Shown here: piece by piece, positions 15,474 through 18,442 of the stretch
How the letters are laid out: the number at the start of each line of letters is the position of its first letter
Numbering within the stretch: the first letter of the stretch is position 1
Assembly (NCBI GenBank): GCA_023300575.1
Contig: JALZUT010000109.1
Coordinates: 1-34,965, forward strand
Reading direction: 5' to 3'
From: Olleya sp.
GTDB taxonomy: Bacteria > Bacteroidota > Bacteroidia > Flavobacteriales > Flavobacteriaceae
DNA length: 34,965 nucleotides
Translations under genes and position numbers: made by a program
Notes under the pieces: model-generated
The model's input: the letters and a program-made list of their open reading frames with translations, nothing else
Database searches by the model: none
What the model was told of the DNA's origin: nothing

Positions 15474-16367
15474 TTAATTTTTCATCCCTTTCACCATTCG
15501 ATCTCTTCCAAACATGTCCTGCTTCAATTCAATTCCCACAAATCCTTTTTCTTCTAAAAGCTGAATCATTTCTTGTCCAAGATATTCATTAATTTCAAAA
15601 TACAACTCACCTTTAGGCTTCAAATTAGTAACAGCAAACTCAGTTATTGCTTTATAAAAAACAAGTGCATTATCATCTTCTACAAATAACGCTAAATGTG
15701 GTTCGTTTTTTAAAACATTAGTTTGCATTTTGGCTTTTTCAAGGTTTCTAACGTATGGTGGATTGGATACTATGGTATCAAATTTAAAATTTTTATTATT
15801 AGATAAATGCTTTGACAAACTCAGCATGACACTTTTACTATTTAATATATCTGCTTCAACAAACGCGACATCTACATTATTTAATTCTGCATTTTGTTTT
15901 GCTATTTTAAGCGCGTCTTTAGATACGTCTAAAGCGTAAACTTTAGCATTTATAACTTCTTTAGCTAAACTAATTGCAATACAACCTGATCCTGTTCCAA
16001 TATCTAAAATAGCTATCTGAGATTCTTCGACAAGCTCAGTATGACATTTTTTTACCCAATCAACAAGCTCTTCTGTTTCAGGACGTGGTATTAAAGTATG
16101 TTTATTAACCTTAAAAGGCAATCCGAAAAACTCGGTTTTGCCTAAGATATACTGTATTGGTTTTTGTTGTTTTAAATCCTCTAATACATTAAAAATAGGA
16201 GATTGCTCTTCTTTTGTGATAGACAAATCGGTATCTAACGCGATTTGCAAACGCGAGATATCAAAAAAATGGGCGGTACATAAAAAGAAAAAACTAGACA
16301 CCTCTTCTTTACCATAGATAGCATCTAATTGCTTGTGAAAAATATTTTTTAAGTCTTTTAAAAGCAT
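15474..16367 (-). CDS. prmC: Peptide chain release factor N(5)-glutamine methyltransferase
   Basis: LIPRPETEELVDW, ILDIGTGSGCIAISLAKE, IVSNPPYV motifs. The ORF track starts at 16403, but MLLKDLKNIFHKQL (16367) is the likely start because the longer version overlaps the GNAT gene. Confidence 0.93.
   Translation of the reverse strand: MLLKDLKNIFHKQLDAIYGKEEVSSFFFLCTAHFFDISRLQIALDTDLSITKEEQSPIFNVLEDLKQQKPIQYILGKTEFFGLPFKVNKHTLIPRPETEELVDWVKKCHTELVEESQIAILDIGTGSGCIAISLAKEVINAKVYALDVSKDALKIAKQNAELNNVDVAFVEADILNSKSVMLSLSKHLSNNKNFKFDTIVSNPPYVRNLEKAKMQTNVLKNEPHLALFVEDDNALVFYKAITEFAVTNLKPKGELYFEINEYLGQEMIQLLEEKGFVGIELKQDMFGRDRMVKGMKN
15807..15831 (-). repeat. Dispersed repeat copy inside prmC, read as SVMLSLSKH
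   Basis: Minus strand TGTCATGCTGAGTTTGTCAAAGCAT; nearly identical to 16023..16046 in the same orientation. Confidence 0.8.
16023..16046 (-). repeat. Dispersed repeat copy inside prmC, read as CHTELVEES
   Basis: Minus strand TGTCATACTGAGCTTGTCGAAGAA; same DNA as 15807..15831 with a few substitutions but a different reading frame. Confidence 0.8.
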
Positions 16368-16374
16368 TTTAGTT

Positions 16375-16866
16375 TTATAAATCTTTAACCATCCAAATAC
16401 CACAATTAAAATGCCCCGTATTACCTAAAGGTCCTTTTAAATGGGTAAATCCGTAACTTTCATAAATATGGATTGCTTCCTTTAATTTAGGAATTGTTTC
16501 TAAATATGCACGATTAAAGCCTAAAGACTTGCCTTTTTTAAGACATTTTTTAAATAGTTTTTTACCAAAACCTTTACCGCGTAAGCGATTAGAAAAATAC
16601 ATTTTTTGTATTTCAAACACCTCGTTTTCCAAACCACTTAATGGTTTTAAACCGCCTCCCCCTTCTACAACACCATCAATAGTAACGACATAATACACTT
16701 CTTTTTTTTCAGAATAAGACTCATACATCTTTGGTGTTTCAACATCTGCATAAGCAGTACCAACTAAAGGCAAGTCATATTCTATAAAAACCGCCCTTAT
16801 AACAGCTTCCATTTGCGCATTATCTTGTGGCTGGATTTCTCTTATTTCAATTATAGTATTACTCAC
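16375..16866 (-). CDS. GNAT family N-acetyltransferase
   Basis: 163 aa; VEGGGGLKPL..., QKMYFSNRLRGKGFGKKLFKKCLKKGKSLGFNRAYLET, YESYGFTHL. Confidence 0.88.
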   Translation of the reverse strand: MSNTIIEIREIQPQDNAQMEAVIRAVFIEYDLPLVGTAYADVETPKMYESYSEKKEVYYVVTIDGVVEGGGGLKPLSGLENEVFEIQKMYFSNRLRGKGFGKKLFKKCLKKGKSLGFNRAYLETIPKLKEAIHIYESYGFTHLKGPLGNTGHFNCGIWMVKDL

Positions 16867-18361: not shown

Positions 18362-18370
18362 AAAGTATTG

Positions 18371-18442
18371 TCATTACTGCGAAAGCAGAAATACAGAATA
18401 GTCCTATTATTAAAGTAGATTACTACTTTACTAGTAATGACA
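18371..18442. repeat. Nested palindromic intergenic element
   Basis: Outer inverted repeat GTCATTACT...AGTAATGAC; inner CTGC-GAAA-GCAG (18378..18389) and AAAGTAG-ATTA-CTACTTT (18413..18430). Confidence 0.8.

Follow-up and report, generated by a model that had tools for sequence, protein, structure and literature searches.

Why would a single conserved gene carry one short stretch of DNA twice, in the same orientation and in two different reading frames? The question arises from a first-pass annotation of a stretch of 34,965 nucleotides from Olleya sp. (contig JALZUT010000109.1; hereafter the window), which pointed to two near-identical motifs on the minus strand of prmC and proposed that a small repetitive element had entered the gene at both places. 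Here, we follow these two copies from the gene in which they lie to the repeat family from which they stem, and to other genes and genera in which similar repeats occupy the same loops.

Two copies of one repeat in prmC

The gene itself is identified in Table 1, and its start is more probably the ATG at 16367 than the GTG at 16403 at which the mechanically called open reading frame begins, as judged from the window sequence and an alignment to congeners. The motif TGTCAnnCTGAGCTTGTCGAAGnnT is present twice in prmC. A pattern search of the window returned exactly these two copies, while the same pattern had no match in shuffled window sequence, and the copies are identical at 20 of 24 positions, confirming that the two motifs are nearly the same and point the same way. 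Both peptides had been correctly translated, the one encoded by copy 2 coming from the less hydrophilic of the two frames. The use of two different frames is equally real, but only two frames are open on the forward strand of the repeat (CHAELVEAS and VMLSLSKH), with a TGA in the third, so that two different frames are what would be expected of copies that survive within a coding sequence.

Table 1 Features of the window, with positions counted from its first letter.
Feature	Position	Strand	Sequence or evidence	Peptide	Location
prmC (hemK), release factor glutamine methyltransferase	15474..16367	-	TIGR03534, E=7e-74, exceeds its cut-off		
REP copy 1	16020..16046	-	TGTCATACTGAGCTTGTCGAAGAATCT	CHTELVEES	loop 1 of PrmC
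REP copy 2	15807..15831	-	TGTCATGCTGAGTTTGTCAAAGCAT	SVMLSLSKH	loop 2 of PrmC
Degenerate hairpin, possibly a decayed REP	18370..18394	+	GTCATTACTGCGAAAGCAGAAATAC		directly 3' of ribD

In a predicted PrmC structure (mean pLDDT 82, 16 sequences), a helix precedes loop 1 and the motif I strand follows it, and loop 2 consists of an extra helix and loop ahead of the strand leading to NPPY. According to this model, both copies are in peripheral loops, between core elements of PrmC, copy 1 before the motif I strand and copy 2 before the strand to NPPY, which is where the annotation had placed them. The proposal of two insertions holds for copy 2, which in the alignment adds a net seven residues relative to congeners; it does not hold in terms of length for copy 1, which brings no net change, the loop 1 linker being equally long in most congeners. 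Among ten congeners, loop 2 is filled by the family to which the window copies belong (family A) in the window genome only.

Two short stretches that differ at 4 of 24 positions might resemble one another by chance or through convergence of loop peptides, a reading to which we attach almost no credence. Chance similarity is ruled out by the absence of matches in shuffles together with copies found throughout the genome, where the same DNA also occurs between genes, often in inverted pairs. Convergence of the proteins cannot produce a match in DNA, because the two copies use different frames.

A dispersed hairpin with an unpaired TGTC tag

A genome-wide search bears out the suspicion that the repeat is dispersed. 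With a looser family A pattern (at most two mismatches), 12 copies were found in the window genome (G000; 2.31 Mb, 76% complete), 19 and 9 in two congeners (G007 and G008, respectively) and 0–7 in each of the remaining genomes of the genus, while the reversed pattern, used as a control on the same genomes, found none. A further in-frame family A copy of the window genome lies in menE (L004, contig C79, near 1501–1521), where it is read CHAEIVEAF.

The family A unit is an imperfect hairpin of ~25 bp. Both window copies start with TGTC, which stands outside the stem and of which GTC is invariant across 21 family A copies; their tails read ..AATCT and ..CATTT. The stem is laid out as 5-bp arms, a tandem G.A and then a G-C pair, with A-T as the first pair in 18 of the 21 copies and a variable second pair, and the arms are a perfect 5 bp in copy 2 and contain one mismatch in copy 1. 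Over the 21 copies, 26 cells had changed on both sides of the stem, a number that was reached neither in 500 shuffles nor with any shifted pairing. The copies used here were matches to a pattern in which the two most variable stem pairs had been left free, and these pairs are therefore unbiased by the search. The folding energies do not set families A and B apart from ordinary DNA, so it is this covariation on which the hairpin rests.

Two related families, which occur in the same bacterial family, enter the comparisons below: family B (GTCAnnTCGAGYGnAGTCGAGAnnTC), found in 136 of 261 genomes with up to 120 copies, and family A3 (GTCATGCTGAACTTGTTTCAGCATC), found in 109 of the 261 and possessing a perfect 8-bp stem and a 5-nt loop. 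Between genes, the repeats often stand as inverted pairs. An Rfam search of the window matched no known RNA family. Additionally, the hairpin beside ribD (Table 1) has three mismatches to the pattern of the CGTCATTCCTGCG type and, from its letters, may be a decayed REP of another family (GTCATTCCTGCGNANGCRGGAATCC type).

By its tag, its hairpin plan and its lack of a transposase, family A fits the CGTC/TGTC-tagged REP superfamily described by Di Nocera et al. (2013, PMC3733652), whose members are palindromes of 20–40 bp with an unpaired CGTC, TGTC or CCTC at one end, a stem of 8–9 bp with complementary A-T at the first and second position, and a short unpaired tail that is CCA in most, but not all, of them. 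The published elements occur mostly as head-to-head pairs without a dedicated transposase, their range takes in Bacteroidetes, among them G. forsetii, a member of the Flavobacteriaceae, and some copies lie inside ORFs (PMC3733652). Our repeats share the unpaired TGTC tag, the short hairpin, the occurrence as singletons and head-to-head pairs, the lack of an associated transposase, the presence in Bacteroidetes and the location of some copies within ORFs; however, family A is without the CCA tail, and the stems of families A and B contain a tandem G.A mismatch. Different REPs at about the same recB site in two Xanthomonas are the one published case of site sharing (PMC3733652), whereas the slot reuse described below is widespread and in a fixed register.

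Since the superfamily includes RPE-4 (CGTC-4), RPE-6 (CGTC-1) and a Flavobacteriaceae species, in-frame insertion has precedents, and the annotation's comparison with Rickettsia palindromic elements was apt. Like RPE-4 and RPE-6, the repeats studied here are palindromes lying in frame in unrelated genes (prmC, metG, mvaD, metH, menE, serA and others), although Rickettsia belongs to another phylum and its elements have other sequences, the likeness being drawn through the published description of the superfamily.

REPs and REPINs with a GTAG tag, which are mobilised by RAYT (Y1 tyrosine transposases), are also small hairpins that occur as singletons or inverted pairs and are thought to be non-autonomous, but the tag here is TGTC and not GTAG. 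RAYT/Y1_Tnp was considered as the mobiliser and rejected: a search for Y1_Tnp found it neither in the 76% complete window genome nor in G008, an Olleya genome in a single contig, and the number of REPs does not track its presence: Y1_Tnp occurs in 9 of 18 genomes that have at least 20 B copies, and the two are not associated over the 261 genomes (Fisher p = 0.33). Delihas (2007, PMC2759123) presents the enterobacterial RU elements with reading frames as MITE-like repeats within annotated genes, in which an amino-acid sequence is maintained; at 103–168 bp, they are small but far from the ~25 bp of the unit here. MITEs have the inverted termini of an IS and are flanked by a duplication of the target site. 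Our unit is a single hairpin of ~25 bp.

Repeats of several families at the prmC loops

In an alignment of PrmC orthologues, which the annotation had put forward as a check, the residues encoded by the window copies are not family-wide, and in several genera these places are taken by different peptides, likewise encoded by REPs. Loop 1 contains family B in phase 0 (VTSSAVEKS), with a perfect copy in G015 and decayed ones in G007 and G008, both of them Olleya, and a CHSERSEES-type repeat in G191, G070 and others. Loop 2 contains A3, read RHAELVSAS or GHAELVSAS, in G242 and G078, and a decayed A3 in G163.

A survey of 155 prmC genes gave eight copies (two mismatches or fewer) within the coding sequence, all of them sense and all at loops 1 and 2, compared with 15 copies in 1.08 Mb of flanking DNA; a ninth match listed in this survey (L161) is upstream of the gene start and hence outside the eight. 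Relative to the flanks, this is a modest enrichment (p = 0.026 once the two copies of the window are left out, and with genomes treated as unrelated). Recurrent occupation of both loops by REPs of several families across genera is thus what the prmC sequences suggest, without being decisive by themselves, because the surveyed genomes are related. One surveyed locus, L181, encodes a Flavobacteriaceae-like PrmC on a contig whose title names a Bifidobacterium breve MAG, a record that is probably mislabelled or contaminated.

In-frame copies in other conserved genes

The idea of a small palindrome whose insertion in frame is tolerated is supported by copies in several other conserved genes. Among sampled REP loci, from which both this gene list and the rates given here are drawn, in-frame copies were found in genes matching the curated families mvaD, metG, metH, menE, menF, mnmC2, serA, pdhC and trpF, as well as in a leuS-like pair whose identity comes from sequence context only. 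The mvaD copy adds exactly eight residues relative to most orthologs. The same gene and site recurred in different genera four times for metG, twice for leuS and twice for mvaD. Copies of B/B2 in long ORFs were sense and in phase 0 in 20 of 23 cases, in a non-random sample that had partly been picked for near-perfect copies.

Two loci from two genera, L217 and L309, encode the same large protein, in which a B copy occupies one shared site (VASSAVEMS and VTSRKVEMS). Also, four antisense in-frame A3 copies were seen, all in one frame, at L316, L317 and L238; each of these loci has a copy read EMLKQVQHD, and a second copy in L316 is read EILKQVQHD.

A slot in metG

As metG had recurred among the sampled loci, it was picked for a survey of its own, with genomes that were not picked for REPs and were mostly the best matches to the query, together with a set in which the alignment was split at the loop. 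REPs were found in 21 of 100 genomes within a slot of ~20 codons (L336–L435, 7.1 kb in total), compared with 19 REPs in 301 kb outside the slot, only one of which was within the ~200 kb of other metG coding sequence (nominal p = 3e-24). All 21 slot copies are sense, and their register is close to constant: the start offset is +3 in 13 of 13 B/B2 copies and +1 in 7 of 7 A3/A5 copies, with a single A copy at +34 as the one exception. Some slots contain longer insertions with several repeat-like pieces.

Such constancy could be produced by site-specific docking, in which a machinery recognises the slot, or a REP that already resides there, and either inserts REPs or exchanges them, keeping a fixed register, with selection playing a secondary part. 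The offset of 2 nt between A-type and B-type copies is identical at the metG slot and at prmC loop 1, and neighbouring branches have different families in the same slot, both of which would be in keeping with docking. However, codon phase allows few offsets for each family, which makes the shared offset weak evidence; the A copy at +34 departs from the register, slot copies are perhaps partly inherited, and the search yielded no enzyme and no target motif. We regard this reading as unlikely.

Inheritance was assessed on a metG tree, a FastTree of a broad radiation with limited resolution. The distribution of B versus empty slots requires 11 changes (12.0 with shuffled labels) and that of stem type 9 changes (9.3 with shuffled labels), counts so near to the shuffled ones that neither B presence nor stem type follows the tree. 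Four changes suffice for A versus B (6.8 with shuffled labels), and this lower number indicates that family type is partly inherited in the slot. The stem pairs covary among the copies at this site.

A single ancient insertion into each loop, passed on vertically while selection on mRNA structure or gene conversion from other copies kept or changed the hairpin in place, would account for the covarying stems and for the phylogenetic signal in A versus B, as well as for the existence of decayed copies and for loops that are often equally long with and without a recognisable REP. Yet the REP families that share the slot differ in core and in phase, B presence and stem type are off the tree, and family A fills prmC loop 2 in the window genome alone among the congeners compared, leaving this explanation quite improbable in our view. 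Repeated filling of the metG slot fits the sequences best.

How the loops may be filled

The surveys indicate, at the level of sequence, that a few coding loops, two in prmC and one in metG, with leuS and mvaD as further instances, are recurrent landing places for mobile DNA, occupied by several REP families that each favour one strand and one codon phase. We consider it fairly probable that TGTC-tagged REPs are moved in trans by a putative enzyme and that selection keeps the in-frame copies in tolerant loops. Such an enzyme would copy the REPs by acting on their hairpin, perhaps while the DNA is single-stranded, and insertion would be frequent on the time scale of a genus. Purifying selection would retain only stop-free copies in tolerant loops, with a hydrophilic peptide of ~9 residues, and filled loops would later decay, lose the element or be refilled. 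Selection on the loop and on the encoded peptide would then be the main source of the phase bias, the strand bias and the recurrence. Against this view, loop tolerance alone would not call for a register as constant as that of the metG slot, and copy 2 of the window is in the less hydrophilic frame. That a few conserved Flavobacteriaceae genes hold dedicated docking slots for mobile coding hairpins, with insertion or exchange in a fixed register, appears rather doubtful to us; if true, the slots would be docking places for such hairpins, more than tolerant loops.

In-frame REPs, mostly as scattered cases, are already known, as are superfamily copies in ORFs and the one case of site sharing in recB. 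What is new is how widely and how regularly slots are reused by several families in different genera, in that no paper describing this was found in the literature searched: a full-text search with the core sequences of A, A3 and B returned none that deals with these repeats, and a search joining REP elements, intragenic copies and HemK found none either. The slots amount to a natural experiment on the entry of mobile hairpins into proteins and, since it is known beforehand where to look, the question of what moves CGTC-type REPs can now be tested. They also carry a warning for annotation, as loop peptides such as CHAELVSAS, CHSERSEES and VTSSAVEKS in these proteins are repeat-derived and are not conserved functional motifs.

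Other contents of the metG slot

The metG slots of L368, L380, L410, L414, L416, L417, L427, L429 and L432 contain a variant encoding VSSSDSTxEN (GTCAGTTCGAGTGATTCGAC..TATCGAGAAC), whose stem ends resemble those of B and whose middle is long. A search of 61 genomes with the pattern of this variant found nothing, so it was rejected as another dispersed repeat and left out of the REP count. In another slot, that of L420 (G036), the B repeat seems to be interrupted when compared with L405 from the same genus (NVRSSPSTALRTGSVEIS versus NVRSSAVETS), and the interrupting stretch contains another REP-like core, as though a repeat had been inserted into an existing one.
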